A DNA stretch of 64,000 nucleotides from Styela clava. Its lineage: Eukaryota; Chordata; Ascidiacea; Stolidobranchia; Styelidae. Positions 14,398 to 60,577 of the stretch are shown here, in pieces. Positions within the stretch are counted from its first letter, which is position 1. The number at the start of each line of letters is the position of its first letter. The notes under the pieces are model-generated. The model was not told the DNA's origin. It did no database searches and was given only the letters and a program-made list of their open reading frames with translations. The DNA lies in contig NC_135254.1 of NCBI RefSeq assembly GCF_964204865.1, positions 14,699,001 to 14,763,000 of the forward strand. The letters run 5' to 3'. A program made the translations under genes and the position numbers.

Positions 14398-14977
14398 CTT
14401 GCTTGATTTGTAACCATTTTTTCTGAATGTGATAAATTCAGCTTTAATTAGGCTCATTTTTAGTGCCATAAATGAGTCTCAAAAATGCCATATCCTATTT
14501 GTCCACACATCTTCCCGCCAAAAATTGTATCAATACTCTAACTTTCTTCCGAAGTATTATATCTACCCTACTCCAGAGCATATCATGATTTCCACTTTAT
14601 ATGCCTATTCTGATCTTGTTTCTCACAAGATATATTTATTCCAACTAAGAATAGCGTGACAGTGGGACAGGTTTGAGGCATAGGGGACACGACATTCTGA
14701 GATAGTCCCCGCATTTTTCAAACACATGTCCGAGTCCGACTCGAACTAGCTCTGCTCTCTAGCATTCATTGTAAAAAGTTAAAATGGAGTAATACAGCCC
14801 TATACTGTAATATGTAATAATACTGTAAAATGGACTAATACAGACAACTACGCGAACTACGTCAATAGTTCGAGTTTGACAGAAATACAACACATTGTGG
14901 GTAAAATCGTCGCCTAGAAATGACATTGTTACACATGACAGGGAAGAAAAACGTCGTTTATCTGGAGAAAAAAAAAA

Positions 14978-15214
14978 TTGCCAGTTTTTCATTGGGGTTA
15001 TCGGGGTATTGAGGTCATTTTTGGGAATACTAGACTATTGAAAATAAAAGATAGTGTTCTGACAGACATAACAGCGCTAGATTCAGAGGATTGGTGGACA
15101 ATACCGTTACGTTGTAAACTTCTTATGGTCAAAATCCACAAAAACATTAGATATAAATTTAGATTCAAATACGGGGTATATTTTTCTGGTTACATTAATC
15201 TTATCAAGTTTTAA
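14978..15214 (+). other. Open frame of unknown status kept in both duplicate copies
   Basis: A 78-codon open frame with many charged and aromatic residues is kept in copy B (21241-21477) with only a few residue changes. There is no recognisable domain, signal peptide or splice context. Preservation is expected simply because the duplication is young, so this is weak evidence of coding. Confidence 0.15.
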
Positions 15215-17363
15215 AAACCCTTCGAAACAAAAAAAAATCTACAATTTTTTCCCCTCATATCTAAAGCTTTTTAAACAAATTTATGACGCGAATGTAGCGA
15301 CTGTGTGTGCTGTTTACAATTGTTCGTTATCTGTTATGCCATCGGAAAGGTCAGAAACAGGTTTGTTACAATGACGTGAAATTGCTGAAATTTGTTGTCG
15401 TGCCCATAATTTTGCAATTTGAAGCTTTAGAATATATGAACTGTGAGACAATTGGTTGCCCTTCGTAATTTTTGTCGGATTAAAAAAAATGAATTCTAGA
15501 CTGTTGTTGCGTTAATAAAAATTATTAATAGAAAAGAATCATTTTATTTCTTATGTTCGTTTAAGATTAACCAACAGATTTCCACACGAGAGCTGCAATT
15601 AATAACTAAACTTTGATGAAATCCTTGATCCCAGTCGTATGAGTTTATAAATTATGCTATTTCTATTTTTTTTACTAATAGTTGTTAGCCCATGCTCTTT
15701 ATGGCATGCCAATCACTTCGGAATGACATCCTATGTGTGCTGATGGCCTTGCCTTGACATAAACTTTTTACATATAACTTGGCTGCTTTTATAGAACTTT
15801 GTTCATATCAGAGGTAAAAGTCTCAACATAATGATAGATTTGCTTTCCATTCAATTTTTTCAGAAGGAATTAGAATAATATTTCATTGATTGTTTGCAGT
15901 TGTAACAAAGTAAATACGTTAGCAAGATTAAAGGTTTAACAACTATTTCTGGTAAATAAAAAAGCGTTGTGACGTATTGTATGAAAATAAACGCAACTGA
16001 TAATTTAGTTTTGTATGGCATGAAAATGCATAATCGGCGATAAAACTGGGTACGAAATCTGAAAAGGGTCGTTTAAAGCAAAGCAAGGAAGTAAAAATAT
16101 GTTCCAATCTGATTTAAATTCTTATTAAACATTTGTTGTAGAAAGAGTGCTGTGCAGCAGTAAAATCATAATGTTTGCACAAAGAAAACACACAACGATC
16201 AATAAACACAAGTGGTTATAGGTGAAGGTGCCGGCCTGGTTGTGTGCAAGTCTTCGTATGTTTTTCGTTTCCAAGCCTGTCGAGTGAGGCAATATATTCA
16301 TGTGGCCTTAGATGTTGCTACAGCGCCTCCATGCGCTCGCAGTTCTAAAGTAAACGGACACGAAGACATATGAAAGTGTTTTCATATATCATATAACAGT
16401 GTTCACATTAAGTAAAATGAAACAACCAAATTTTGTATGAAATATCAGACCTTGGAATATTCGAAAGCGATTGAAAAATAAAAATAAAATAAACAGATAA
16501 AAGTAACAGCCCATCTGGCGACTTCTTCTATTATCATTTTTTTTACAATATAATTTTTTTTTCACATTAACTAATTTAGAAAACGATTATGGGGTCCACT
16601 TAGTGTCCAATGAGTCAATTGAGAATTTGTTTTCGATTTTTTCAACCTTTTGCATTTGTATCGATAACAGAAACTATATCGGCCAATTTGACGCAAATAA
16701 GTCTTGAAATGTATCTTTAAAAAAATGGAGGGCTCTACCCAAAAGTTTACAAAATCCCTATTTCCAAATATTTCAAGCATTTTGACTATTTTTTATTTAT
16801 TTAAAACGATGCAATACTCTTTAATAGTTGAGATTGCAACATGATACAGCTCGGCGTCAACTCGTAAAGCGTTTGCTGGAGTGGGTAAATATTAAATATC
16901 AATAAATTTCAGAACTTTCGCGCGTATTGTCACGTCACTTCAATTAGTGATCAATTAGTGATCTGATTGCGCGAGCAAAAATCATGCGAATAGGCATGGA
17001 AAACATGCAATGAAGTTAGTTTCAAATTGAAACAAATCATGTTATTTTTGTCTTACTTGTTGTCCGTTTCAATTTGAAAAATCTGGAAATGTCACTCAAA
17101 TACAGTTTGGAATCATTAGTCAATATGCTCGAAGACATGATCTTTCTTTAAACAAAACAACTCATACAATGTCATGTTTTTGGAAGGCCATATTCAATGC
17201 TTCTCTCAATTAGCTTGCAAAGTTCGATGTAATACTGACTTTGTGAAAATTGCTCAATTATCGTGTTAAATGTTTCGCAATAATTCTAGATGTCAATGAC
17301 GAGGAGGCCTCTAGATCGTGCAAATTTGAACCTTTCGTGTGTACTGATCTAGAGTTTAAAATC

Positions 17364-17497
17364 ATTCAAAATCACATACCGAAACAGACTATGTGTTACT
17401 CGTCCTACGAGGGTCGCGTTATTTGCTCATTTCAAAATCACATACCGATACAGGCTATTTGTTACTCGTTGCACAAGGGTTGCGTTTCCAAAGCTCA
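17364..17497 (+). repeat. Two-unit tandem repeat of about 65 bp, copy A
   Basis: Two imperfect units, each containing CAAAATCACATACCGA followed by TGTTACTCG and GGGT(C/T)GCGTT, lie head to tail. The same pair occurs in copy B near 23617-23750. An open frame (17250-17546) runs across it, but no protein family is recognised. Confidence 0.55.
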
Positions 17498-18275
17498 ACG
17501 AAAAATAGATGAATGGTCTGTAACGAGGCAAACGCATCAATCTTAAATCCTTGTTTATTTTGCTCTTGTCTATATTCTGTATATTTGCATACAGTACATT
17601 GTTTTTATGTGTTGTTATGTTTTCATTTTTTTTTCATCTCAATGCAAAAGTCCGCGAGTCATCAATAAATTAGAAGAAGTCACGGATTTATTTTTTATTT
17701 TTCAAAAAGTCTGATAACCACCAAACTAGACAAGGTCGATATGCTGGGATCTCAAATGCAGTATATATATATTAGGCCAGGGGAATAATGGTTAGTAGTT
17801 CATATTGCACAAAATATCAGAACTGCACACAAACGATGGCCTAGCGTGCATATCGTTTAAGTTGTAATTGGTCAAGTCAAACATGAGATGTATTGGGAGG
17901 ATAAAACTACCGAAGGAGCTGCTGCTGGATATATTAATAGCATGGGTTGGCGTCAGACTGTAAACATATTGGTCAAATAATTGTAAAACTGTATTTGTAT
18001 AGGATATGGGTTTAGGCGATTGGAGGAAGTGGGTAAAGGGCCATAGCTCAGTGAAAATTGATAATTACAGGTCAAGAAACCTTAGTACACATGATTGCTT
18101 AATCAAGGATAAATACTAGAATACTTTACTTTAGCCATTACGCTATGTTACAAATTTCGGTCGAATTATGTATCTTATTCTCTTTCTTAATCGAGCTTAT
18201 TTTAAGAGAACCACTTATATGACATAAATCTGATCTATATGGTGACCGAATATGGTTACATTCGAATCGCTTTTG

Positions 18276-18525
18276 TGACGTCAGTGACGAACAATGAAAA
18301 TGGGGGAAATACCGACGGGTTGAAGGAAAGGGGGTGAAATTTAGCATGTTTATTCAATTCTGATGCAATCTTTCTCACTTCAAAAATCATGTGATTAAAC
18401 TAATCCAACCTATTTAATTTTATCTAATTCGAGAATTCCCAGGTCCGAATTAGACACGAATTTGAAGGGTTTTTGTGGGTAATTTTCACACCTACGCTTT
18501 TAATAGGAATCTGCTGGGTATATAA
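18276..18525 (+). promoter_or_regulatory. Probable promoter of IL-17-like gene A
   Basis: A TATATAA box lies at 18519-18525, 55 bp before the ATG. A kappaB-like site (GAGAATTCCC, reverse GGGAATTCTC) is at 18431-18440 and a perfect CRE/ATF palindrome TGACGTCA at 18276-18283. All three recur at the same spacing upstream of gene B. Use by Rel/NF-kappaB and CREB/ATF factors is inferred from motif and gene type only. Confidence 0.45.
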
Positions 18526-18573
18526 TGTCATATCAGCACTCGTGGAAGTAGTGCGTTTTGCATATCCTCCAAA

Positions 18574-19597
18574 ATGTGTCGAACAGCTGCTAAATACTTA
18601 TTATTAGGAATCAGAATTGTTGTTGTAATTTTTCTATCTGAATTGACCTTTTCTGTTGGTATGCCACTAAATGAATTAGCAATCGAAGAGAATGTCGATG
18701 GGATACCCCCGGAATGCAAGTTTTTAAAAGGAAATCAGAGGTATAGAAAGTTGACATATATAAGTATATATGTAATCGAATTATTTTTGAACGTAGTCGA
18801 AAATATATTGGCACGATTTTCTTTTGTAATATTTTTGTATGTATTATTTTTCAAACTAAACGTGCAAATTCTAAAAAAGAGAGGCCGCAAATCAAGATAA
18901 AAACTTTTTAAGAGATAACAACAATCTTTTCGTTTGTTCATGTTCAATGCTATTGTTACTGTGAATAAAGATATTTTCCATTGGTTTCAAATAACGTTTA
19001 TTTGTGCGGCAGAAAATTCGAACTCCATACAACAGTTTACGTGAAAGAATAAAAGTCGCTGAAAAAATATTAGAATAAAAGTCTGGTGATTTTTATAAAA
19101 ATGTCAATTTATTTTCAGAAAAAATTGTATTACTGTTTTCATGGGCGACTACGTAAAAATGTCACGAGATATGCTTTCTGACAAGAAATTCGCTGACGAA
19201 TTGGAAGTACAAGACGTCCGATCGAGGGAGAAACGATCTATTAGAAAACGTTGCCCTAAATTCAGTGAGCAGTACCTGCGTCGGCCTAAAAAAGTAAAAG
19301 ATCGCAGTATTTCTCCATGGAAATATATCAAAAATACTAATAATAAAAGGTACATATGAATATATTATGTGTGTAAAAATATACATAGAATAATTTTTGC
19401 ATTTGTGCATTTTTAGAATACCCAAGATATTGATGGAAGCTCGATGTCTTTGTAACGGTTGTATAAACATAGAAACAACTAAAGAAGATAACGTGAATCT
19501 TGTCAGTATACCAACAAAAACGAAAATTACAGTAATAAAAAAAGGGAAATTAAGTCGCAAGATCATTAATACTGGATGCACTTGTGTCATCCGGTAG
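18574..19597 (+). CDS. IL17: Interleukin-17-like cytokine, gene A
   Basis: A secreted cystine-knot-like cytokine of the IL-17 family, expected to act through IL-17 receptor (SEFIR) signalling in mucosal immunity. Exons 18574-18740, 19119-19349 and 19417-19597 join in matching phase (AG/A at both junctions) to give 192 residues. An N-terminal hydrophobic signal segment (about residues 8-29) is followed by a pro-like region, a furin-type site REKR/S, then the IL-17 core: RCPKFSEQY, RSISPWKY, ILMEARCLCNGC and the terminal NTGCTCVIR. These match the family pattern (SPW-Y, E-A-x-C-L-C-x-x-C, G-C-T-C-V). Introns are 378 and 67 bp. It lies in duplication copy A; the paralog is at 24827-25850. Family assignment is firm; orthology to a particular IL-17 subtype is not. 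Confidence 0.93.
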
Positions 19598-19905
19598 ATA
19601 AATCGTGATCGATCTCAGCATCTCAGTTATAAAACGTTGTGAACTTTGACGACTGCAGACAATGAGCAAGGTATTTTGTATCACGCCGTTTGGAATTTGG
19701 ATTTTTCGGATTCAATATCTTGCAAACATTTTGTAAATTGGGAAAAAATGACAAAGGCACTGCACATTTCTTAGTGCGTTAAGTACGAAAAACGCCGATA
19801 CGTTCGAAGGATGACCATCAGTAACTTACGTGAGATTTCGTTGAATTAGGAAGTTGAAAATGCATGACGTCATAATAAGATATTCGATTTTATATTTCAC
19901 ACATC

Positions 19906-20100
19906 AGCAGGGGCGTAGCCAGAGGGTTGGAACCCTCTCCCATTTTGTAAAGTAACAATTTTTCGTAGCTTGAAACGCTTTTTAGACCGTCAAGACTTTC
20001 GAAACCCGACGTCTTCTGGCCTCCGCTCAGACCCGCTGGCTGTTACGCTCCATCTTGGCAATTAGAAATTTCAGAATCCCTTTTGTTGGAAATTCTTGAC
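19906..20100. repeat. Dispersed repeat with hAT-like end, copy A
   Basis: The stretch starts CAGGGGCGTAGCCAGAG, typical of hAT terminal sequence, and contains a GCTTGAAACGCTTTTTAGA segment that also occurs, diverged, at 43157-43270. It is repeated in duplication copy B near 26159-26353. A clean right end and target duplication were not found. Confidence 0.45.
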
Positions 20101-20370
20101 TACGCGCATCAGGCAAATTCCAGTGATGTCATAATAAATATTTTAACATATTTTAAGAAGACTATCAGTAAAGGTTACGCGAGACTAACTCTCAATCCTT
20201 CCCCAATGCCTTTGCGCTAGTTGATCCGTATGCGTATAATACAAGAATGCTGTAGCAGGAATAAAAACACCATAGGCCTACTATGCAATTCAAGAGCCCG
20301 GCTGCACACCAACACAAATGTATTTCTGTAACGTTTTGCTTGATTTGTAACCATTTTTTTCTGAATGTGA

Positions 20371-20708
20371 TTACTCTTTTAGATAGTCATATCTCGGAAG
20401 ATGTTTTTGTTTTAACGTCGAAAAAAATTTAAATTTCACCCAGTATAGCCTATATGAATAGTTGTGACAAGTATGCTGCTGGGTAATTAACGGTTTTATA
20501 TTTCGGTTTCAATGGGAATCGAAAATTCAAAGCAAATTCGATTCAAGCGAGTAAATGTAATTTACAATCATATTCGTACAATCAAGTAGTAGAACACTTT
20601 TATACAAAAATGTTGTTCATAAATCATGAACTGAACTTCCAAGACGGTAATGCCGGGGAATATCTAAACTTGAATTTGATTCTGCAGACCCAACACTACA
20701 AATAACTT
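20371..20708. repeat. About 340 bp segment present only in duplication copy B
   Basis: In copy A, CTGAATGTGAT is followed after three bases by TTCAGCTTTAATTAGG; in copy B the same two sequences are about 340 bp apart. Either copy B gained an insertion or copy A suffered a deletion. No inverted-repeat ends or target duplication are evident, so I do not call it a transposon. Confidence 0.7.
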
Positions 20709-23616
20709 CAGCTTTAATTAGGCTCATTTTTAGTGCCATAAATGAGTCTCAAAAATGCCATATCCTATTTGTCCACACATCTTCCCGCCAAAAATTGTAT
20801 CAATACTCTAACTTTCTTCCGAAGTATTATATCTACCCTACTCCAGAGCATATCATGATTTCCACTTTATATGCCTATTCTGATCTTGTTTCTCACAAGA
20901 TTTATTTATTCCAACTAAGAATAGCGTGACAGTGGGACAGGTTTGGGGCATAGAGGACACGACATTCTGAGATAGTCCCCGCATTTTTCAAACACATGTC
21001 CGAGTCCGACTCGAACTAGCTCTGCTATCTAGCATTCATTGTAAAAAGTTAAAATGGAGTAATACAGCCCTATACTGTAATAATACTGTAAAATGGACTA
21101 ATACAGACAACTACGCGAACTACGTCAATAGTTCGAGTTCGACAGAAATACAACACATTGTGGGTAAAATCGTCGCCTAGAAATGACATTGTTACACATG
21201 ACAGGGAAGAAAAACGTCGTTTATCTAGAGAAAAAAAAAATTGCGAGTTTTTCATTGGGGTTATCGGGGTATTGAGGTCATTTTTGGGAATACTAGACTA
21301 TTGAAAATAATAGATAGTGTTCTGACAGACATAACAGCGCTAGATTCAGAGGATTGGTGGACAATACCGTTACGTTGTAAACTTCTTATGGTCAAAATCC
21401 ACAAAAACATTAGATATAAATTTAGATTGAAATACGGGGTATATTTTTCTGGTTACATTAATCTTATCAAGTTTTAAAAACCCTTCGAAACAAAAAAAAA
21501 TCTACAATTTTTTCCCCTCATATCTAAAGCTTTTTAAACAAATTTATGACGCGAATGTAGCGACTGTGTGTGCTGTTTACAATTGTTTGTTATCTGTTAT
21601 GCCATCGGAAAGGTCAGAAACAGGTTTGTTACAATGACGTGAAATTGCTGAAAATTGTTGTCGTGCCCATAATTTTGCAATTTGAAGCTTTAGAATATAT
21701 GAACTGTGAGACAATTGGTTGCCCTTCGTAATTTTTGTCGGATTAAAAAAAATGAATTCTAGACTGTTGTTGCGTTAATAAAAATTATTAATAGAAAAGA
21801 ATCATTTTATTTCTTATGTTCGTTTAAGATTAACCAACAGATTTCCACACGAGACCTGCAATTAATAACTAAACTTTGATGAAATCCTTGATCCCAGTCG
21901 TATGAGTTTATAAATTATGCTATTTCTATTTTTTTTACTAATAGTTGTTAGCCCATGCTCTTTATGGCATGCCAATCACTTCGGAATGACATCCTATGTG
22001 TGCTGATGGCATTGCCTTGACATATACTTTTTACATATAACTTGGCTGCTTTTATAGAACTTTGTTCATATCAGAGGTAAAAGTCTCAACATAATGATAG
22101 ATTTGCTTTCCATTCAATTTTTTCAGAAGGAATTAGAATAATATTTCATTGATTGTTTGCAGTTGTAACAAAGTAAATACGTTAGCAAGATTAAAGGTTT
22201 AACAACTATTTCTGGTAAATAAAAATGCGTTGTGACGTATTGTATGAAAATAAACGCAACTGATAATTTAGTTTTGTATGGCATGAAAATGCATAATCGG
22301 CGATAAAACTGGGTACGAAATCTGAAAAGGGTCGTTTAAAGCAAAGCAAGGAAGTAAAAATATGTTCCAATCTGATTTAAATTCTTATTAAACATTTGTT
22401 GTAGAAAGAGTGCTGTGCAGCAGTCATAATGTTTGCACAAAGAAAACACACAACGATCAATAAACACAAGTGGTTATAGGTGAAGGTGCCGGCCTGGTTG
22501 TGTGCAAGTCTTCGTATGTTTTTCGTTTCCAAGCCTGTCGAGTGAGGCAATATATTCATGTGGCCTTAGATGTTGCTACAGCGCCTCCATGCGCTCGCAG
22601 TTCTAAAGTAAACGGACACGAAGACATATGAAAGTGTTTTCATATATCATATAACAGTGTTCACATTAAGTAAAATGAAACAACCAAATTTTGTATGAAA
22701 TATCAGACCTTGGAATATTCGAAAGCGATTGAAAAATAAAAATAAAATAAACAGATAAAAGTAACAGCCCATCTGGCGACTTCTTCTATTATCATTTTTT
22801 TTACAATATAATTTTTTTTTCACATTAACTAATTTAGAAAACGATTATGGGGTCCACTTAGTGTCCAATGAGTCAATTGAGAATTTGTTTTCGATTTTTT
22901 CAACCTTTTGCATTTGTATCGATAACAGTAACTATATCGGCCAATTTGACGCAAATAAGTCTTGAAATGTATCTTTAAAAAAATGGAGGGCTCTACCCAA
23001 AAGTTTACAAAATCCCTATTTCCAAATATTTCAAGCATTTTGACTATTTTTTATCTATTTAAAACGATGCAATACTCTTTAATAGTTGAGATTGCAACAT
23101 GATACATCTCGGCGTCAACTCGTAAAGCGTTTGCTGGAGTGGGTAAATATTAAATATCAATAAATTTCAGAACTTTCACGCGTATTGTCACGTCACTTCA
23201 TTCAGAATTAGTGATCTGATTGCGCGAGCAAAAATCATGCGAATAGGCATGGAAAACATGCAATGAAGTTAGTTTCAAATTGAAACAAATCATGTTATTT
23301 TTGTCTTACCTGTTGTCCGTTTCAATTTGAAAAATCTGGAAATGTCACTCAAAGACAGTTTGAAATCATTAGTCAATATGCTCGAAGACATGATCTTTCT
23401 TCAAACAAAACAACTCATACAATGTCATGTTTTTGGAAGGCCATATTCAATGCTTCTCTCAATTAGCTTGCAAAGTTCGATGTAATACTGACTTTGTGAA
23501 AATTGCTCAATTATCGTGTTAAATGTTTCGCAATAATTCTAGAAAGCAATGACGGGGAGGCCTCTAGATCGTGCAAATTTGAACCTTTCGTGTGTACTGA
23601 TCTAGAGTTTAAAATC

Positions 23617-23750
23617 ATTCAAAATCCCATACCGAAACAGACTATGTGTTACTCGTCCTACGAGGGTCGCGTTATTTGCTCATTTCAAAATCACATACCG
23701 ATACAGGCTATTTGTTACTCGTTGCACAAGGGTTGCGTTTCCAAAGCTCA
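23617..23750 (+). repeat. Two-unit tandem repeat of about 65 bp, copy B
   Basis: This is the counterpart of the repeat at 17364-17497 with the same two imperfect units. Confidence 0.5.
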
Positions 23751-24528
23751 ACGAAAAATAGATGAATGGTCTGTAACGAGGCAAACGCATCAATCCTAAA
23801 TCCTTGTTTATTTTGTTCTTGTCTTTATTCTGTATATTTGCATACAGTACATTATTTTTATGTGTTGTTATGTTTTCATTTTTTTTTCATCTCAATGCAA
23901 AAGTCCGCGAGTCATCAATAAATTAGAAGAAGTCACGGATTTATTTTTTATTTTTCAAAAAGTCTGATAACCACCAAACTAGACAAGGTCGATATGCTGG
24001 GATCTCAAATGCAGTATATATATATTAGGTCAGGGGAATAATGGTTAGTAGTTCATATTGCACAAAATATCAGAAGTGCACACAAACGATGACCTAGCGT
24101 GCATATCGTTTAAGCTGTAATTGGTCAGGTCAAACATGAGATGTATTGGGAGGATAAACTACCGAAGGAGCTGGATATATTAATAGCATGGGTTGGCGTC
24201 AGACTGTAAACATATTGGTCAAATAATTGTAAAACTGTATTTGTATAGGATATGGGTTTAGAGTCTAGACGATTGGAAGAAGTGGGTAAAGGGCCATAGC
24301 TCAGTGAAAATTGATAATTACGGGTCAAGAAACCTTAGTACACATGATTGCTTAATCAAGGATAAATACTAGAATACTTTACTTTAGCCATTACGCTATG
24401 TTACAAATTTCGGTCGAATTATGTATCTTATTCTCTTTCTTAATCGAGCTTATTTTAAGAGAACCACTTATATGACATAAATCTGATCTATATGGTGACC
24501 GAATATGGTTACATTCGCATCGCTTTTG

Positions 24529-24778
24529 TGACGTCAGTGACGAACAATAAAAATGGGGGAAATACCGACGGGTTGAAGGAAAGGGGGTGAAATTTAGCAT
24601 GTTTATTCAATTCTGATGCAATATTTCTTACTTCAAAAAACATGTGATTAAACTAATCCAACCTATTTAATTTTATCTAATTCGAGAATTCCCAGGTCCG
24701 AAGTACACACGAATTTGAAGGGTTGCTGTGGGTAATTTTCACACCTACGCTTTTAATAGGAATCTGCTGGATATATAA
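24529..24778 (+). promoter_or_regulatory. Probable promoter of IL-17-like gene B
   Basis: TGACGTCA is at 24529-24536, the kappaB-like GAGAATTCCC at 24684-24693 and TATATAA at 24772-24778, mirroring gene A. The base before the TATA differs (GGATATATAA against GGGTATATAA). Function is inferred from motifs. Confidence 0.45.
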
Positions 24779-24826
24779 TGTCATATCAGCACTCGTGGAA
24801 GTAGTGCGTTTTGCATATCCTCCAAA

Positions 24827-25850
24827 ATGTGTCGAACAGCTGCTAAATACTTATTATTAGGAATCAGAATTGTTGTTGTAATTTTTCTATCTGAATTGAC
24901 CTTTTCTGTTGGTATGCCACTAAATGAATTAGCAATCGAAGAGAATGTCGATGGGATACCCCCGGAATGCAAGTTTTTAAAAGGAAATCAGAGGTATAGA
25001 AAGTTGACATATATAAGTATATATGTAATCGAATTATTTTTGAACGTAGTCGAAAATATATTGGCACGATTTTCTTTTGTAATATTTTTGTATGTATTAT
25101 TTTTCAAACTAAACGTGCAAATTCTAAAAAAGAGAGGCCGCAAATCAAGATCAAAACTTTTTAAGAGATAACAACAATCTTTTCGTTTGTTCATGTTCAA
25201 TGCTATTGTTACTGTGAATAAAGATATTTGCCATTGGTTTCAAATAACGTTTATTTGTGCGGCAGAAAATTCGAACTCCATACAACAGTTTACGTGAAAG
25301 AATAAAAGTCGCTGAAAAAATATTAGAATAAAAGTCTGGTGATTTTTATAAAAATGTCAATTTATTTTCAGAAAAAATTGTATTACTGTTTTCATGGGCG
25401 ACTACGTAAAAATGTCACAAGATATGCTTTCTGACAAGAAATTCGCTGACGAATTGGAAGTACAAGACGTCCGATCGAGGGAGGAACGATCTATTAGAAA
25501 ACGTTGCCCTAAATTCAGTGAGCAGTACCTGCGTCGGACTAAAAAAGTAAAAGATCGCAGTATTTCTCCATGGAAATATATCAAAAATACTGATAATAAC
25601 AGGTACATATGAATATATTATGTGTGTAAAAATATAGATAGAATAATTTTTGCATTTGTGCATTTTTAGAATACCCAAGATATTGATGGAAGCTCGATGT
25701 CTTTGTAACGGTTGTATAAACATAGAAACAACTAAAGAAGATAACGTGAATCTTGTCAGTATACAAACAAAAACGAAAATTACAGTAATGAAAAATGGGA
25801 AATTAACTCGCAAGCCCATTAAGACTGGATGCACTTGTGTCATCCGGTAG
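24827..25850 (+). CDS. IL17: Interleukin-17-like cytokine, gene B
   Basis: Tandem paralog of gene A with the same structure: exons 24827-24993, 25372-25602 and 25670-25850, total 192 residues. It has the same signal segment, SPWKY, EARCLCNGC and GCTCVIR motifs, with all IL-17 cysteines kept. Exon 1 is identical to gene A. Exons 2 and 3 differ at 12 bases, all changing residues, giving 11 amino-acid differences: for example VKMSR to VKMSQ, REKR to REER, RRPKK to RRTKK, VSIPT to VSIQT and SRKIIN to TRKPIK. The REKR to REER change weakens the furin-type site. Both genes look intact, so two functional ligands are likely. Confidence 0.93.
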
Positions 25851-26158
25851 ATAAATCGTGATCGATCTCAGCATCTCAGTTATAAAACGTTGTGAACTTT
25901 GACGACTGCAGACAATGAGCAAGGTATTTTGTATCACGCCGTTTGGAATTTGGAGTCTTCGGAATCAATATCTTGCAAATATTTTGTAAATTGGGAAAAA
26001 ATGACAAAGGCACTGCACATTTCTTAGTGCGTTAAGTACGAAAAACGCCGATACGTTCGAAGGATGACCATCAGTAACTTACGTGAGATTTCGTTGAATT
26101 AGGAAGTTGAAAATGCATGACGTCATAATAAGATATTCGATTTTGTATTTCACACATC

Positions 26159-26353
26159 AGCAGGGGCGTAGCCAGATGGTCGGAACCCTCTCCCATTTTG
26201 TAAAGTAACAATTTTTCGTAGCTTGAAACGCTTTTTAGACCGTCAAGACTTTCGAAACCCGACGTCTTCTGGCCTCCGCTCAGACCCGCTGCCTGTTACG
26301 CTCCATCTTGGCAATTAGAAATTTCAGAATCCCTTTTGTTGGAAATTCTTGAC
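26159..26353. repeat. Dispersed repeat with hAT-like end, copy B
   Basis: Duplicate of 19906-20100, carried along with segmental copy B. Confidence 0.45.
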
Positions 26354-27344
26354 TACGCGCATCAGGCAAATTCCAGTGATGTCATAATAAATATTTTAAC
26401 ATATTTTAAGAAGACTATCAGTAAAGGTTACGCGAGACTAACTCTCAATCCTTCCCCAATGCCTTTGCGCTAGTTGATCCGTATGCGTATAATACAAGAA
26501 TGCTGTAGCAGGAATAAAAATACCATAGGCCTACTATGCAATTCAAGAGCCAAAATCAGACGAAACGTTACAGTAATACATTAGTTACATAAGTTATGCA
26601 ATGAAAGATGCAATGAAACGTGGTACCAGAAAATGTGACGTCATAATACGTCTATTTGCGACAGTAATCGGATCTGCATTTACTGTATATTTACGAACAA
26701 GTTTATGTTCATTTATGTTCTTGCAATACAGGTATTCTGATAAAATCTCCATTCTTATAGCTGTTCAGCAATTGTCTTGCTTTAAGTACAATGTTTGCTT
26801 ACTACTTCATATTAACAAATGCGTTTTGTCGACATTCTTTCTTACCGATTTAATTAAACCAGTGATTCTATAGTGTTGATTTATCACGAACAAAATAAAT
26901 ATTGGTATTCATATTTGGGAGTTAACGGAAGAAGTTTTATGTCATTTGGTACGTGGGTATTAATCACGCTTGTGTATTTTCTGTGGCAACTGAGTGGGTG
27001 AATTTGATTTGCGTTTCAAGGGTAATTCCATAATACAAGATATGACATCGTGGAGTATGTAGGTGTAGGGCGAGCCGTGTGCAAAACCGCAATTGATAAC
27101 AAACGGACAGCAGTCATGACATGGCAATGTGTAAGTCGCGGCATTTTGTAGTTTTAAAGTAATTTATGTTGGATTGACGCAAGTCATATAATATATCCTC
27201 GTTGCGCCAGTGAAGCATTGGAGTCACAGTCCGGAGTTTTGTAAGATTTCTTTCTTGTCGGAGTCGTATTCTTAAAAGTGGGTTATCACGGAAAAATTTC
27301 TGTCCGTTCAAAATAACTGCAAAACATAGATTATTAATCATTTA

Positions 27345-28912: not shown

Positions 28913-29249
28913 CAGTTAAATGAAATCTTCAATGAAGTTTATAAATCTAGTGACTTACAAGAAACTAGCCTAGGTGACTACACTAGGTTATCGAATATTT
29001 CGGTTGAAAATGATTGTCATAAACAACTTAGCCATTTTGTGAGCGCCAAGTCCTGAAAACACTTTTAACATTAACATACATTTTTATACGATATTTAAAC
29101 CTAGGAAACATTTTTCTCCATTTTTATGTTTCATTTATAAGTTAAGAATTTCAGTTCGTTACAGCAAATTAGCCATGAGACTAATCATTGAGGTGTATAG
29201 AGGACTTGCACGGGTCACGTGACCTTGTTTACTGGACGGCAATAAAACA

Positions 29250-29985
29250 AAACGTCCATTTGGCTCCTGTCAGTTGCAAGTCGGATTTTACGTTTCCGCT
29301 TTGTTTGGCTGTTGAAAATGGTTATTTCGTATTGTTCCGCTGGCTGTACGTATAGTATAAACAACGAAATGGATATTCAGTTATATTCCACCGTTTTCAA
29401 AAGATCCGGAACGTCGCGCAATGTGGATATTATCTATTGGCAGAATGGCAGGACTGCTTGGTGTCAAGTCCAGAAGCCATCTCACTTGTGTTTCACTGTT
29501 TGCGGACAGCACGTCGTTGATGGTGAGTCATAATGTGCCGTTATCATTTTTTCAAAATATTCATAAGCTCCCTCATTTCAATGGAAAGCAGATGACAAAC
29601 TACTGTTATTGGTAGGCCTAGGCGTAGGCCTACTTGCAGACTTGACTCGTGTAAGGTAATAATCAATAATTGCCATTAGGTATTGTTTCCCTAGTTAGCA
29701 GGTAATCTATTAGTAAGTGTAAAAAGTTGAATAGATAACTAAAGTTTAACGCCAGTGCTTAACGCCAAAAAATAACTAGAATTCAATTGAATTCTCCATT
29801 TAAGAATACGCTCGCCACCGAATCTCTGATTCCCCTGGGAGTTTCACAGGTTTCAATCCCATGCGGGCGTAGTTATGTGCGAGGCGATTGCAGCTCTCCT
29901 GCCACTGAGGGTGGTTCACACGACCGCTGGTCGATTACGAGATCCCCCACCATCAAGTCCATGCTTCTAAAACAAATAACTGGCT
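29250..29985 (+). repeat. Left arm of a large inverted repeat
   Basis: This 0.74 kb arm matches the reverse complement of 31731-32495 along its whole length, with scattered mismatches and small indels. It contains a THAP-like remnant and, at its inner end, the front of a SINE. The arms are separated by about 1.75 kb. Confidence 0.85.
29312..29533 (+). pseudogene. THAP-type zinc-finger remnant, left arm
   Basis: The frame reads MVISYCSAGCTYS, then YWQNGRTAWCQVQKPSHLC, then CGQHVVDG. This resembles a THAP (C2CH) DNA-binding domain: a CxxxC near the start and a final C-x2-H. A C-terminal AVPTxF-like string (NVPLSFF) follows in another frame. THAP domains occur in P-element-type transposases and in cellular regulators. 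The domain lies in an inverted repeat and is broken by frame changes, so I call it a remnant. A GT donor-like GATG/GTGAGT follows, so a single 5' exon is a less likely alternative. Confidence 0.45.
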
Positions 29986-31705: not shown

Positions 31706-31915
31706 TAGGATAGGATTTATCTGGGGGGGAGCCAGTTATTTGTTTTCAGAAGCATGAACTTGGATGGTGGGGAATTGTCGTAACCGATCAGCGGTCATGT
31801 GAACCACCCTCGATGGGAGTAGAGCTGCAATCCCCTCGCACATAACTATCCCCGCATGGGATTGAAACCTGTGAAACTACCAGGGTGATCAGAGATGCGG
31901 TGGTGAGCGTATTCC
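31706..31915 (-). mobile_element. tRNA-derived SINE copy, reverse orientation
   Basis: Read on the minus strand it runs from the GAATACGCTCACCACCG head through the B box to a tail of ATCCTATCCTA. It is the mirror of the copy at 29803-30060 and lies at the same place within the right arm, with part of its 3' body missing. Confidence 0.7.
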
Positions 31916-32495
31916 TAGATGGCGAATTCAATTGAATTCTGGTTATTTTTTGCCTGACCACTGGTGTTAAATTTTAGTTATCTATTCAACCTTTCACACT
32001 TGGCAATAGATTACCTGCTAATTAGGGAAACAATAACTTATAGCAATTGATTATTAATTCCGTACTGTCTTACACAAGTCAAGTCTGCAACTGCAAGTAG
32101 GCCCACGCCTAGGCCTACTAATAACAGTAGTTTGTCATCTGCTTTCCATTGAAATGAGGGAGCTTGTGAATATTTAAAGAATTTGATAACGGCACACTAT
32201 CACCACATTATCACTCACCATCAACGAAGTGCTGTCCGCAAACAGTGAAACACAAGTGAGATGGCTTCTGAACTTGACACCAAGCAATTCTGCCAATAGG
32301 CAATACCGTAGATGATATCCACATTGCGCGACGTTCCGGATCTTTTGAAATCAGTGGAATACAACTGAAGATCCATTTCGCTGTCTATACTATACGTACA
32401 GCCAACGGAACAATACGAAATAATCATTTTCAACAGCCAAACAAAACGGAAATGTATAATCCGACTTGCAACTGACAGGAGCCAAATGGACGTTT
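31731..32495 (-). repeat. Right arm of the large inverted repeat
   Basis: Reverse-complement partner of 29250-29985, shared from AAACGTCCATTTGGCTCC inward to the SINE segment AAATAACTGGC. Confidence 0.85.
32221..32427 (-). pseudogene. THAP-type zinc-finger remnant, right arm
   Basis: Minus-strand counterpart of the left-arm remnant: MIISYCSVGCTYS in one frame, then, after a frame change, AWCQVQKPSHLC and CGQHFVDG. The C-x2-H with HFVDG is closer to the THAP consensus than the left arm is. A frame change within the domain makes it non-coding as it stands. Confidence 0.45.
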
Positions 32496-33488
32496 TTGTT
32501 TCAAATTTTATATGTGTGATAGAGAGTGGATGTGTTTTCACTACGTATTTTTCGTATAGGTGAGTAAACACGCGCCTTCTCTGTTTCCATCATTTCACTT
32601 TAATTTTTGGTCTTCTGAAGCTTTATTACCGTATAGATTTTGTTCAATTTTATTTTCTGTCCTCAATCATTTCTTATCTTGTTATCTCTGTCATTATTAT
32701 TCACGCTCCGCGTTTTTACAATACTGATATTGGGAACATTAATTTTTACGAATGTCTATGATCTTCGGTTCGTTGCTGTGGCAAAAATAATGTTGATTTT
32801 CTGGTTGTAGTCTTGGCTAGCGCCATTTTTCAATATACGGTTATTACGGTAGCCTACCGTAGCCACCTTAAGGTGCGATGCATCTTGTTTCTGTCACGAC
32901 GCTTTCTTGATTTGAATGAACGAATCCGATGAACGAAACGAAAGTACGCTACAGCTCACTGCCAAAGAGTTACATCATATAGAGGTACCGTACCGTACCT
33001 GTAATGCTGTACCGGTAATGTGTATGTCAGTATGTATGTACCGGTACCGGGATACCGTACGGTACGGATGTTTATTCGTCTCGTGAAAGCAATATAAAAG
33101 AGTTAGTAATTATCAACATTGAAGACGGGAATGTGAATTTGTGCTAGAGTCTACCGGTAATTTCCTGCACATCAGATCTAACGTTGTACATTTCTGCATT
33201 TAAAAATCTTAAACCTACTACCGGTACGGTTGAATGATGTTGATGACTAATACTGTACCGTAATAGCAAATTAGGAGCATCTACAATTTTTTTTATTTTC
33301 TTTGTAGACTAGATATCAAGATACATCACTTTTGATTTGGAAATCGCAGCAAACTACAAAGAAATCAGGAGTACTGAAACCAGAAAATTATCTTGAGTAT
33401 TCCAATTCTGTCAGGTATGAGAAATTTATGGGTCCGATATAGTTTAGTACCACATACACTTCTAGTTGACCTGGCTCAACAATTCTTT
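32496..33488. other. Region without a gene, with GGTACC-rich patch
   Basis: No gene is recognised. A patch at about 32985-33070 is packed with overlapping CCGTACC, CGGTACCGG and CCGTACGG palindromes. The sequence next to 33825-34095 may include the MRPS28 promoter, but no TATA box stands out. Confidence 0.4.
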
Positions 33489-40524: not shown

Positions 40525-40839
40525 TGTCACGGTCTAAGATGTTGCTACCGTGTGTATTGAATCAGAAGACTCAGATTCCGGATTTGTGGTTTATTATGAG
40601 GCAACTTCACAGTTAAAACAGCACAAAACAGAGAACACAGGAAAACACGTCCGGCCGCCAGCGAGGCGACCGGAGAAGAGGCGAAAAGCTCTCTTTTTCT
40701 CCCGACCTGATGGCGATCGGAGTCCCACAGCAACCGGACCCGGATGAAGTATACCCGAACCAAGGGTCCTCAAAAAGCATATAGGCAAATACAAAAAGAC
40801 AAACTAAATTAAAACACACGGATAATAAAATCCGTGACA
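40525..40839 (-). repeat. 3' LTR of the gypsy-like element
   Basis: Direct repeat of 45543-45856, with differences mainly in one block near 40680-40730. TG...CA ends with the short inverted repeat TGTCACGG/CCGTGACA. Confidence 0.85.
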
Positions 40840-45542: not shown

Positions 45543-45856
45543 TGTCACGGTCTAAGATGTTGCTACCGTGTGTATTGAATCAGAAGACTCAGATTCCGGA
45601 TTTGTGGTTTATTATGAGGCAACTTCACAGTTAAAACAGCACAAAACAGAGAACACAGGAAAACACGTCCGGCCGCCAGCGAGGCGACCGGAGAAGAGAG
45701 CGTGAAACTCTTTTTCTCACAACTCGAGGGTGATTGTAGTCCCACAGCAACCGGACCCGGATGAAGTATACCCGAACCAAGGGTCCTCAAAAAGCATATA
45801 AGCAAATACAAAAAGACAAACTAAATTAAAACACACGGATAATAAAATCCGTGACA
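45543..45856 (-). repeat. 5' LTR of the gypsy-like element
   Basis: Partner of 40525-40839. Given the minus orientation inferred from the purine tract, this is the promoter-bearing LTR. Confidence 0.85.
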
Positions 45857-47101: not shown

Positions 47102-47891
47102 GCTAATAACCGAATTGCGTAAGTCATTTTTGGCGATTATGATTTTTTATGAAATAGGTATTTATGTAATGCTGTGCACCTGTCTGTTAACTCAGATTTT
47201 ATTTTAAGAATTCCGAAACCCATAAAAATGGAGATTTAGTATGACATGCACATCTGTGCAATTGTTTCGTCATAATGAATTATCATTGTTAACGCAGGAC
47301 TAATGTGACGTCACAAAGGCAAAATAACTTCTGCTAAGTATTTTCGAGTTTTTGCATCTCGGATTCTAGCTTAGCGCGTATTAATTTGAATTTATACTAC
47401 AGTATAGGAAGACGTGCACTTGTGATATTCACTGTCCGAGTCCTTGGTTGGCTTTTATATTGGGTGCATTGCTGTTTTATTCTTTATATTTAATCTTAGT
47501 CTTATTTCGGTGGGTGTGCAGAACGTGTTAAGTTGATGAACTATATATTTTTAAACATAAAAAATAAAGTAATTGGAACTGATTAGCTATTTTGGGGATT
47601 AGACATTGTAGATACCGAGAATTACATTCGTTTTTGTAATGTTTAGTGTTCAGGACTGGTGCATATAGTAAAGATGCCCCCAAGTCATAGACACATTTCT
47701 GCCTAAGTCACAGTGCGCCATTATGACGTCACTTAACTGCGTCATACAAATTAACTTAAATCCGGCGACGATCAAAAAATTGAACCATGGAAAATTATTG
47801 ACTCTCAATGGAATAACAATAACATTAGGAAGTTTTTTACGTTTTTCTCAAAACTGCTAAAAATGACTTGCGCAATTCGGTTATTAGCGTG
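47102..47891. mobile_element. Inverted-repeat DNA element, copy 1
   Basis: The left end GCTAATAACCGAATTGCGTA and the right end GCGCAATTCGGTTATTAGC are inverted repeats extending inward over CAGTTTT/GGCGATT. The 790 bp are about 95 percent like 57608-58414 by eye. Both copies contain TGACGTCAC. No transposase motif was found. ACAAT occurs near both edges, a possible target duplication. Confidence 0.75.
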
Positions 47892-55400: not shown

Positions 55401-58400
55401 TCTGAAAATATAGTTATATATTTAATAGTTATGCATTTTAACGAAAGGTGTTGCTATCATATCTCCAAGTCGGTTATTTGAAAGTTTCCCGGCATAACTA
55501 ATATATTGCGGTATTAGTTCATAAAAGTTGCCACTCTCACAATGAATGAAGCCTTGTGTTTTCCTTGTGTTCTCAACGAAGATGAACTCAATTAATAATG
55601 TATATATATAGGTTAAAAAGTTGATGGATTTTAAACAGTAGTTAGAAAAATTAGATTTAACAAGGGTAGAATAGTATGTTTGTCAGTGCACGAAAACGTT
55701 ACATTGGACAGTAAAATACCCTATAGAATGTTGATGCAGCCGGAATACCGGAATCCGAGTAAATAACTTAGCCATTGGGTAATATAAGAGGCTACAATAA
55801 ACTACCGCTGAACTATCTCAAATGCAGTGTGAAGAAAGTACATTGACCAGCCCTGTTTTGCATGCCGTCAACACATTTAAGTGAAAAAATGGCGAGTTCT
55901 GCAATGCTCATTTTAAATATATATATATATATATATAAACGGCTAATTATTTGTATTCATTCTATGACTTCATTCGTGCATTTTTTGAGCAAAATATTCT
56001 GAAATCAAGTGTTTTCACAATAATCAATCCATGCATCCGAAAAAAATAATTGGCTAACTAACCCCATACGCGACACAGACTGGTAACAGGACGAGAGGCC
56101 GTGGTTCGCAATATGATCAAGCCGTCTTAGAGACTTTCCTCTCTCCCGGGATAAATATGTAAATCCTGTCCTAATCTAGCACTATCTTTATTATTCTGCT
56201 ATAGGTTTACTTGAGCACAAGACGGGGAACATGGCTTTTTAGTCGAATCATGGACAAAGGGGTCCCCTTCGATTTCCTACTCATAACAAGGTATGTTTTG
56301 GACTGGACCAATTGCTTTTCAGTGATTAGTATTTTATTGTTCGCTATCAAGCTGTTACTTTCATTTATTTTCAAACTTTCTGTAGGCTTTAGGTTATTCG
56401 TTTTTTATTTCAAAATTCAGTATGGTGATCTCTTCCAAATTAATGAAAATTATTTGTAGCGCTACTGCGACCGTTTCCTTTACCGTATCATACAGTAGAC
56501 GAGGTAAGGTACTGTTAAAGATAAGGTAGACTACTGCTTCTCTTTGATCTCCGTGTTCGTATATTTGAGCATCGATCTCCTATTCACCAGTGTTTTTAAA
56601 GAATTTACAATAATATTGTTCTTCAAACGGCTGTGGTTGGATCAACGGTATAAGTCGTCTCCTCCTATGTTACCATCAGCATGCTTGTTTTATAACGCTG
56701 ATTAAGAACATCACAAATTCTATTTCAAGGTTCACTTCTTGGTTGATGTTAAATCTGCCATCCCTTATGAATCCTTTATTTGAATCGATTCTGAACACCA
56801 GATTTGATCACGAGAAGTATGGAGTTAAGCCGAAACATCGAGTTCTTTCCCAGGTGCGTAATATTATGTTTCCGTATTTACCATTATTTTAAAATGAGCA
56901 CCAATGTCCCAAACAAGCGTCTTGGAATCCCAATTGGTTTCGGTTAAACGGCTTCGTTGCATTGGAGGAATCGCTGTGATGATTTTCACAACAGCACTGG
57001 GAATACCATGGTACAATTTGGTTATTTAAGTGGCATATTTCAAACATATATTATGCCGGTTTACGGAAGACTTTGATTTGGATTCCTCGCATGTAGATCA
57101 GAGGCAAACATTTTGACGACGTTTTGAAGATAGACGATTGAATGCATGATTGTTTAGCATCTGTCACCTATTTTACTCCCCTACTAAAGTGAGCAATAAT
57201 AATCCTCGTAAGTATTAAATGTGAAAAATTTATATACATTTGACAAATTATTTCAGCATCCGACTATTAGCGACGAGTTACCTCATCGCATTGTTAACGG
57301 CACCGTCATTCTGAAACCGAACGTGACAGAATTTACAGAAAATGAAGTCATATTCAAAGACGGAGCCAGAGAAAAAATGGATGCAATAATTTTTGCCACT
57401 GGTTTTTCTTTCGAGTTTCCGTTCTTGGACAGGAACATAATTGACGTAAGTTACGTATCGGACAAAGACTACTAGTATATTTGTTATTGTCTGCACAGGC
57501 CAGCTGCCTTTCCTATACTGTATGTTGTAGAAATCTGTGTTTTGACGTAGACGTGGTTGAATTTGGGAAAATATTTTTTTTTATGATTGTTTGTGTGAGT
57601 ATATCGTCACGCTAATAACCGAATTGCGTAAGTCATTTTCGGCGATTTTGAGTTTTTTTTTTATAAAATAGGTATTTATGTAATGCTGCGCACCTAACTC
57701 AGATTTTATTTTAGAATTCCGAAACCCATAAAAATGGAGATTTAGTATGACATGCACAATTGTGCAACTGTTTCGTCATAATGAATTATCGTTGTTACCG
57801 CAGGACTATTGTGACGTCACAAAAGCAAAATAACCTCTGCGAAGTATTTTCGAGTTTTTGCATCTCGGATTCTAGCTTAGCGCGTATTAATTTGAATTTA
57901 TACTACAGTATAGGAAGGCGTGCACTTGTGGTATTCACTGTCCGAGTCCACCTTGGTTGGCTTTTATATTGGGTGCATTGCTGTTTTATTCTTTATATTT
58001 AATCTTAGTCTTATTTCGGTGGGTGTGCAGAACGTGTTATATTGATGAAATATATATTTTTAAACATAAAAAATAATGTGATTGAAACTGTTTAGCGATT
58101 TTGGGGATTAGACATTGTAAATACTGAAAATTACTTTCGTTTTTGGAATGTTTAGTTTTCAGGACTGGTGCATATAGTAAAGTTGCAAAATTGCGTATGT
58201 CCCCAAGTCATAGACACATTTCTGCCTAAGTCACTGTGCGCCATTATGACGTCATTTAACTGCGTCATACAAATTAACTTAAATCCGGCTACGATCAGAA
58301 AATTGAACCATGGCAAATTATTGACTCTCAATGGCATAACAATATCATTAGGAAGTTTGTTCCATTATTCTCAAAACTGCTAAAAATGACTTACGCAATT

Positions 58401-60577
58401 CGGTCATTAGCGTGGTGATATAATACCATAACGATAAGATAGTTTTTTTCAATGTTTCATTGGATTTCAGTTGTTAACCATTTAACAAGATTGAATAGAA
58501 TAAGCTATTATATCAAATTATGTTAAATAAAAAAGCTACAATTATCTTTTATTGTCTCTAAATCCGTCTATATAAATTGTAATCAACATTGGTTATAAGT
58601 CATCGATGATGCCGTGACGATCCTACGGGTCGAAACCTATTCTATGCTAAATAATGGCGTGTCAATATACTTTTATAAATAATAAAAACATGATCGGTTA
58701 CTCACAGACAACCAGTAATCAATCAGGACTCTATCGGCTGGTGTGGCCTATGAACTTGGAACAGAACACTCTAGCCGTCATCGGTCTTGTTCAACCGCTC
58801 ACTGTAATTGGTCCATGCTCAGAAATTCAATCAAGATGGGCAGCAAAGGTTTTTAAAGGTATTTTGATGTCTATTCTGCGCACTGTTTTATATTTCACGA
58901 CGTTGTTACTTAACCAATACTTGGCCCGAAAATAGAATATAGCTCTTACAAAAAAAATGGTTGATTAGATTAGCGTATGCCTAACTACTGCATCTTCCCT
59001 GCTGCCTTTGTGCAAGTGCAGAAGTTTCCAATGTTTTTTGATAAACCCTTTTTTATTTCTATTTTGGACATTTTTATTTCTTCCTCGATAGATTAGTATT
59101 GTGGCTTTTGCACAATTTGATTAGTTTATGATATATCGATGAATACATATTACAATATTACCAAATAATTTTTGGTGAAATTAGACAAAATACAAAATTT
59201 ATCCCCAAGAAAATCCAGATTGGGAAAGAGATTCCAACCTGGTTGCGGAACGTTTTGCTAGTGGGTCTGTATACACAAGCCATAAGGATACTATGTCAGC
59301 TATATAGAGTTGTTGTAATGTTTTGACCTAGGTCAGACTTATTCGAACAGCAGCTCACAGCAGTAACAGGAAAGTAACATCTTTGAGTTTGAAGTTATGA
59401 AACATTAATTTAAATAGAATTTCAATTTCACACCATAAATACGAATTAGAATAATTTCTCGCAAAGGAGTATATAATAATTGGCTTAAAAAAAATTTTCA
59501 TGAAATGGCTGAAATAAAGTTCCGGATCTAACTAAAGTTATCATGTATAAATTCAGGTGGCTTGAAACTGCCTTCAAATGAATTGATGAAAGTGGATTAT
59601 GACGAAATGATGACTGAGATGAAAAAAAGATACCTTTGCAGTCATCGATATACTATTGAGGTACGAAAAATAATGGAGGAAAATATGAATTTATTTAACA
59701 TGCACGTTCTGCAAGTACTGAAAAGTAATAGCCTGGGAATGGCTATCGTTGAATCCACCGGGGAAAAAACACTATAACGAGGGATGTGGAGTGGAGAATA
59801 TTTTTTTACATACATACAAATTATTATTTATTTACACTTACAGGTAGATGGAGTTACTTACATGGACAGAATTGCAGAGGAATTATCATGCAAGCCGAAC
59901 CTGTTCAAACTTTTCATCACGGATCCATTACTTGCGTGGGAGGTATGAATTCTACAAGTTTGGTCCAAGAACTTGTTTAAACTGAACCATCTATAACAAG
60001 ATTTCAGTTCGTTATTGGACACCAAGTGTACATATTGATCGTTTTGTTATTATGTTCTTGTTTATCATCCCGATAGTATTCCTTTCCTTCTTCTTGTTGT
60101 GAAAATGTCTCTTTTCTATTAATTACTGAACCAATTGCTTTGAAATTTTAGGTGATCAAAGATTGTTGTTGTCGCTAAAAGACTATTACTTTCATTTATT
60201 TCAAACTCTGGTAGTAAACACTTTAATATATTGCGCGGACGAATATAATCTATTCTCTGTACAACGTTTGTTGTATTTCCTGATATGTACATATATATAC
60301 GCAATATGTGTATATTAATTTCTTACAGAATATTTGATAGAACTGGAATTTTTGAAGTGGTATTATATATTTTTAGGTATTGTTCGGACCATTCACCTGC
60401 GTGCAGTACCGGCTGACAGGGCCTGGTAAATGGGAAGGTGCTCGAAAAATTATTATGGCACATTGGGGCCGCATGTGGTTCCCGTTGTCGGGAAAAGAAG
60501 AAAAACAACGTCAGTCTTTCTGGATGAATATGCTTATCATAGCGTTCGCTTTTTGCGCTATTGCTTGGATTATATAA
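49487..60577 (+). CDS. FMO: Flavin-containing monooxygenase, complete 12-exon gene
   Basis: FMOs use FAD, NADPH and O2 to oxygenate soft nucleophiles (N, S) at the ER membrane. Exons: 49487-49610, 51005-51186, 52669-52769, 53580-53695, 54119-54261, 56205-56290, 56730-56853, 57257-57445, 58708-58858, 59557-59660, 59844-59942, 60377-60577, giving 539 residues (family about 530-535). Motifs: FAD-binding GAGCSG (12-17) and EIGGLWRYEE (39-48); FMO signature [12 protein letters not shown] (about 179-190); NADPH-binding GMGNSG (204-209); FATGF (338-342); [11 protein letters not shown]-terminal [17 protein letters not shown] and a hydrophobic membrane anchor. Odd: exon 3 is in frame only if it starts at 52669, which adds a few residues (SGLYFRF) before [13 protein letters not shown]; the better-looking acceptor at 52685 would shift the frame by one base. 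Introns carry several mobile elements. The substrate is unknown. Confidence 0.93.
50583..50745. mobile_element. Short inverted-repeat element in FMO intron 1
   Basis: AGTGTGTGTATCAGG at the left and a diverged GGTACACTC at the right enclose CTATTACGAGTTCGGGGAATG. This is the reverse-orientation relative of 7162-7355. Confidence 0.55.
51518..51878. mobile_element. Intact MITE (CCGTGTTTCCCC family) in FMO intron 2
   Basis: The left end CCGTGTTGCCCCAAAAATAA and the right end TTATTCTCGGGGAAACACGG are inverted repeats, flanked by TA on both sides. At 361 bp it has no coding capacity. The TA target suggests a Tc1/mariner-like mobiliser, as an inference. Confidence 0.75.
52058..52474. mobile_element. 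Non-autonomous hAT element in FMO intron 2
   Basis: The 417 bp start CAGGGGCGCATCCAGG and end CCTGGCTGCGCGCCTG and are flanked by a perfect 8-bp target duplication CTGGTAAG (52050-52057 and 52475-52482). This is the hAT signature; no transposase is inside. Confidence 0.9.
54262..56204 (+). other. FMO intron 5, 1.9 kb
   Basis: It contains a (TA)n tract at about 55918-55937 and a truncated SINE at its end. No exon or gene was recognised within it. Confidence 0.55.
56035..56176 (+). mobile_element. SINE 3' half in FMO intron 5
   Basis: ACGAGAGGCCGTGGTTCGC, AAGCCGTCTTA and CCCGGGATAAATATGTAAATCC match the 3' half of 37338-37718. The tRNA-like head is missing (5' truncation). It ends about 30 bp before exon 6. 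Confidence 0.75.
57608..58414. mobile_element. Inverted-repeat DNA element, copy 2, in FMO intron 8
   Basis: CACGCTAATAACCGAATTGC at the left and GCAATTCGGTCATTAGCGTG at the right form the inverted ends of an 807-bp element closely related to 47102-47891. Target duplication is not resolved. It sits between FMO exons 8 and 9. Confidence 0.8.

Follow-up and report, generated by a model that had tools for sequence, protein, structure and literature searches.

IL-17 genes are described as expanded in bivalves, octopus and sea urchin (PMC8353272, section 13), with 35 IL-17 genes, mostly in tandem arrays, in the sea urchin (PMC5457136) and seven IL-17 sequences in Ciona (PMC8353272). The word "selection" is absent from PMC8353272, and no expanded tunicate IL-17 set was found reported in literature titles or abstract openings. 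In the genome of Styela clava (376.6 Mb in 379 contigs), a search with the IL17 profile returned 32 matches from 34 scored candidates, all 32 above the cut-off. Thirty of these matches became loci (L009-L038), distributed over genome contigs 1, 2, 3, 5, 8, 10 and 19, with clusters on contig 3 (2.18-2.23 and 14.84-14.87 Mb), contig 5 and contig 2. If this large set is borne out, expanded IL-17 repertoires would also extend to the nearest kin of vertebrates. Contig 5 also carries a second young tandem IL-17 array (L045-L047, 15.055-15.076 Mb), whose copies are 96.6-97.5% alike and offset by about 3.3 and 8.3 kb; one copy gives a partial domain match, and the front exon region of another is interrupted by a stop. 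The tunicate context is also visible on contig 9 (16.177-16.180 Mb), where a cellulose-synthase exon and a GH6 exon (L058 and L059) share a strand, the former preceding the latter by about 2.1 kb. The cellulose-synthase exon matches Glyco_trans_2_3 (E 2.8e-14), and its best relatives of solved structure are cellulose synthases (E 7e-22); the GH6 exon scored E 1.5e-6 when the genome was searched and 9.9e-11 by itself. The combination of cellulose synthase with GH6 is described as tunicate-only among animals in PMC6523144 and PMC7464555; the two exons would belong to one gene, most likely a tunicate cellulose synthase gene. A search of the genome for COX1 gave no match.

The IL-17 genes studied here lie in a 64,000-nucleotide stretch (the window; NC_135254.1, positions 14,699,001 to 14,763,000), and all coordinates below are window positions on the forward (+) strand. 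Gene A (18574-19597) and gene B (24827-25850) are both intact, with three exons, GT/AG splice sites and a product of 192 residues each. Gene A comprises exon 1 (18574-18740), exon 2 (19119-19349) and exon 3 (19417-19597, stop included), and the exon coordinates of gene B equal those of gene A plus 6253 (exon 1, 24827-24993; exon 2, 25372-25602; exon 3, 25670-25850, stop included). Exon 1 encodes a hydrophobic N-terminal stretch, a possible secretion leader in both proteins as judged by eye only. The IL17 domain occupies residues 119-190, across exons 2 and 3, and matches Pfam IL17 (PF06083) at 68.8 bits in A (E 5.5e-19) and 69.2 bits in B (E 4.1e-19), against a curated cut-off of 24. When protein A was used as the sole query against the sequences of solved structures, the best relatives were IL-17A chains (E 8.4e-9), and 25 of the 26 listed matches were IL-17A, IL-17F or IL-25 (E 8.4e-9 to 2e-5), the remaining one being a lectin (E 0.067). 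Both reading frames are open and every domain cysteine is retained. Both domain scores are far above the cut-off. The initial annotation of the genes as recently duplicated, tandem IL-17-like paralogs is upheld. No Pfam domain matched any of the seven further long reading frames of the window.

The two genes are embedded in a larger tandem repeat, in which unit A (14432-20298) aligns with unit B (20702-26551) at 98.2% identity over 5,874 columns, where 31 columns are gaps and 77 of the 5,843 bases aligned are substituted. A divergence of 1.3% is of the same order as heterozygosity in many marine invertebrates, and it would suit an assembly artefact in which the two alleles of one gene were placed end to end. 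However, the window contains no N, the homology breaks off sharply at either end of the units, and the junction between them (20299-20701) has sequence of its own: it opens with the last 38 bases of a dispersed repeat, continues with 36 columns common to the left flank at 14399-14433, and ends in about 330 bp not present in unit A. Moreover, a genome search with gene A DNA as the query gave two candidates, A and B only. Together these observations favour a true tandem duplication and make an artefact unlikely. The gene A search likewise found no third copy and no stray haplotype contig. A longer DNA query (18574-25850) gave 74 genome matches, with 39 of 2,399 candidates scored; all of the matches listed fell in or around the right-hand repeat and did not include the pair, so that this search is uninformative on copy number. 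The dispersed repeat (20161-20336 and 26414-26585), which marks the right edge of the duplication, has many genomic copies about 85% alike, and its last 55 bases often recur nearby in inverted orientation. Further repeats in the window occur at 47102-47891 and 57611-58414 (91% alike), at 40525-40839 and 45543-45856 (95% alike) and, in inverted orientation, at 29245-29985 and 31730-32501 (86% alike).

The aligned coding sequences of A and B differ at 12 bases in 11 codons, and all 12 differences change an amino acid, with no silent change. The differing residues are 72, 94, 112, 130, 132, 165, 173, 175, 179, 182 and 184, the codon of residue 182 differing at two adjacent bases. Exon 1 has no difference between the copies, intron 1 (378 bp) has two and intron 2 (67 bp) has one, while the 3' flank has seven in its first 331 bp (2.1%) and nine over 19600-20298 (1.3%). 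The initial annotation had reported, by eye, an identical exon 1, 12 base differences in exons 2 and 3 that all alter the protein (11 residues), about two and one intron differences and about 2 percent divergence in the 3' flank; alignment confirms this observation, and its coding and intron counts are exact.

The same annotation regarded zero silent changes out of 12 as unlikely under neutral drift, which stands in a weaker form. Depending on the mutation model, the probability of no silent change among 12 is 0.0275-0.062 with stops treated as non-silent and 0.023-0.055 with stops excluded, the latter range covering 24 settings that vary transition bias, composition, copy and exon set, under which a random coding mutation is silent with a probability of 0.214-0.270. 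Taking the adjacent pair as one event gives 0.031-0.070 for 11 changes, again with stops excluded. These and all other p values for selection on A and B are nominal, since the pair was chosen post hoc out of 64 kb. A pairwise codon model likewise places dN/dS nominally above 1, on 12 changes in a pair picked afterwards (2dlnL 5.36 with kappa free and 5.63 with kappa 1.94; two-sided p = 0.018 at kappa 1.94), and this p value is taken as optimistic because the dN/dS estimate runs to infinity. Overall, the support for selection derives from 12 changes, or 11 events if the adjacent pair is a single mutation.

Noncoding DNA of the unit differs at 65 of 5,262 bases (1.24%), and coding DNA at 12 of 581 (2.1%; this denominator extends two bases past the stop, the CDS including the stop being 579). 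Exons 2 and 3 combined exceed the noncoding DNA of the unit in divergence (p = 0.012), but the whole CDS shows no significant excess (Fisher p = 0.12), and locally (19166-19930) coding sequence (12/366) and noncoding sequence (8/399) show no significant difference (p = 0.36), the noncoding DNA next to the exons being raised in divergence as well. Silent changes expected at the noncoding rate number only 1.5, so that the probability of observing none is 0.22. The rapid functional divergence put forward in the annotation is a plausible reading rather than a demonstrated one. It is also quite possible that this is a real young pair evolving neutrally, in which relaxed constraint and chance produced the coding differences and gene conversion erased those of exon 1 and intron 1. 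Under dN/dS = 1 the absence of silent changes still has a probability of 0.023-0.062 before any correction for picking the pair, local coding and noncoding divergence do not differ significantly, and the longest substitution-free stretch of the unit reaches 708 bp (P 0.002), all of which such neutrality would accommodate. Set against it are the nominal likelihood-ratio support for dN/dS above 1, the open frames and fully retained domain cysteines of both copies, and the location of seven of nine domain changes in receptor-side segments, which were defined post hoc.

Divergence along the unit is uneven. A second substitution-free stretch measures 381 bp (P 0.058; both stretches jointly, 0.003), and exon 3 has seven substitutions inside 59 bp, with P 0.005 at this width, which was fitted to the cluster, and P 0.08, 0.05, 0.05 and 0.09 at widths of 100, 200, 250 and 430 bp. 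In windows picked after looking, 2 substitutions in 647 bp (18519-19165) adjoin 20 in 765 bp (19166-19930). Across the whole unit, neither the dispersion of substitutions among 250-bp bins (P 0.16) nor the excess of close-neighbour substitutions (P 0.11) was significant. From this unevenness, the identity of exon 1 and the divergence of exons 2 and 3 may partly reflect gene conversion, which would have acted across exon 1 and intron 1. A known but distant IL-17 gene was discounted as the donor of converted sequence in exon 3, since the five nearest relatives are too far: their inner branches measure 0.5-1.13 changes per column, and their end branches 0.21-1.04. The block-like pattern and the exon 3 cluster, read with the caveats just given, would also suit an origin of the two copies from diverged alleles, in which an unequal crossover joined old haplotypes and the coding differences are older balanced variation; the non-significant bin dispersion argues against this origin, which we consider improbable.

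Other IL-17 genes of the genome serve as controls. In a comparison of exon 3 pairs, from which L028 was left out and into which L021 entered shortened, 15 pairs exceeded 60% protein identity, and seven of them, A/B included, reached at least 89%. The other six pairs at this level are not independent, being formed within two triplets; every one carries silent changes, 4-7 each, with silent to non-silent ratios of 4:7, 5:5, 5:4, 4:1, 7:3 and 7:4. The full CDS of one control pair has 5 silent and 8 non-silent changes (counted by hand, a two-base codon contributing one of each). Fisher tests against A/B gave 0.007 when exon 3 of two independent pairs was used and 0.039 for the full CDS; a test of the full A/B CDS against exon 3 of the other pairs gave 0.0007 and is not relied on, being a mixed comparison. 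The control pairs have pS values of 0.08-0.14 and are older than A/B, so that the contrast shows constraint on them as much as selection on A/B. It serves to separate A/B from purifying selection, not positive selection from relaxed constraint.

Comparison with relatives bears on which copy has changed. In a tree of 30 exon 3 domains, A and B group together (95/88) and cluster with L028, L029, L038, L035 and L036 (97/94), on branches of 0.15 for A and 0 for B. In an alignment of A and B with eight relatives, five near and three more distant, the near relatives share the residue of B at 130 (4/5), 132 (5/5), 173 (3/5), 175 (5/5) and 179 (2/5), and the residue of A occurs in none of the five at these positions. 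Conversely, they share the residue of A at 94 (4/5, a lysine), 165 (1/5) and 184 (1/5), where none has that of B, and at 72, 112 and 182 they have neither. The distant relatives are mixed, with the A residue in L018 at 72 and 130 and in L018 and L019 at 175, and the B residue in L027 at 72. From these residues the domain looks more altered in A, and residue 94 in B, as a reading of alignment columns rather than a reconstruction.

Binding region I for IL-17RA consists of the ends of strands 0 and 4 together with loops 1-2 and 3-4, and IL-17A numbering was anchored on Pro59, Tyr62, Arg101, Phe110 and Lys114, as given in PMC4869123; a word search of PMC5566378 for IL-17A interface residues found none. 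In the resulting alignment, residues 130 and 132 flank IL-17A Pro59 (codons 130-132, 19339-19347, aligned to Asp58-Glu60), residue 175 corresponds to Arg101, residue 179 adjoins Lys114, and residues 182 and 184 lie further along strand 4; codons 173-184 (19535-19570), which contain six base differences, align with Leu99-Arg101 and Glu113-Ser118. Seven of the nine differing residues of 110-190 fall within the 19 of 81 positions that represent loop 1-2, loop 3-4 and strand 4 of IL-17A (hypergeometric 0.0004, the segments having been drawn after the changes were known). Upstream of the domain, residue 94 lies in the sequence R-E-K-R (residues 92-95 of A, 19225-19236), a likely pro-protein cleavage site that we take to be of furin type. 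The counterpart in B reads R-E-E-R (25478-25489), and the difference at residue 94 likely affects this site in B; since B retains arginine at P1, P4 and P6, cleavage may persist.

The reading that we prefer, at a probability of roughly 0.45, is that A and B are recent tandem duplicates of an IL-17 cytokine gene on which mild diversifying selection has acted. In this reading, tandem copying of a unit of about 6.2 kb was followed by near identity of exon 1, intron 1 and upstream stretches, probably with some gene conversion, while exons 2 and 3, encoding the pro-region and the IL-17 domain, diverged through amino-acid changes alone. Selection would have acted mildly at the receptor-facing side, the domain being more altered in gene A and the likely pro-protein cleavage site in gene B, and receptor binding or processing may differ between the two proteins. 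In a stronger form, which we regard as rather doubtful, selection would have driven a very young pair apart at the receptor-contact side, mainly in A, and at the cleavage site in B, so that a new receptor preference or activation rule is emerging. This young ligand pair would then allow each amino-acid step to be tested singly for receptor binding or activation. The coding pattern suggests positive selection on A/B with nominal and fragile support, and A and B make a fair candidate for ligands at an early stage of divergence.

Compared with the IL-17 cytokine family as known from IL-17A and IL-17F, both proteins retain the SPW motif and the cysteines, whereas the profile and structure searches gave no IL-17 match for the pro-region ahead of residue 110, and a receptor-binding dimer is putative, by family membership from sequence alone. 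In the parts of PMC5457136 and PMC8353272 that deal with sea urchin and bivalve IL-17 arrays, no pair without silent differences was found described. Like those arrays, as presented in the same parts, the IL-17 genes of Styela clava are expanded, clustered and lineage-specific; unlike them, they belong to a tunicate, with 32 matches against the seven sequences given for Ciona (PMC8353272).
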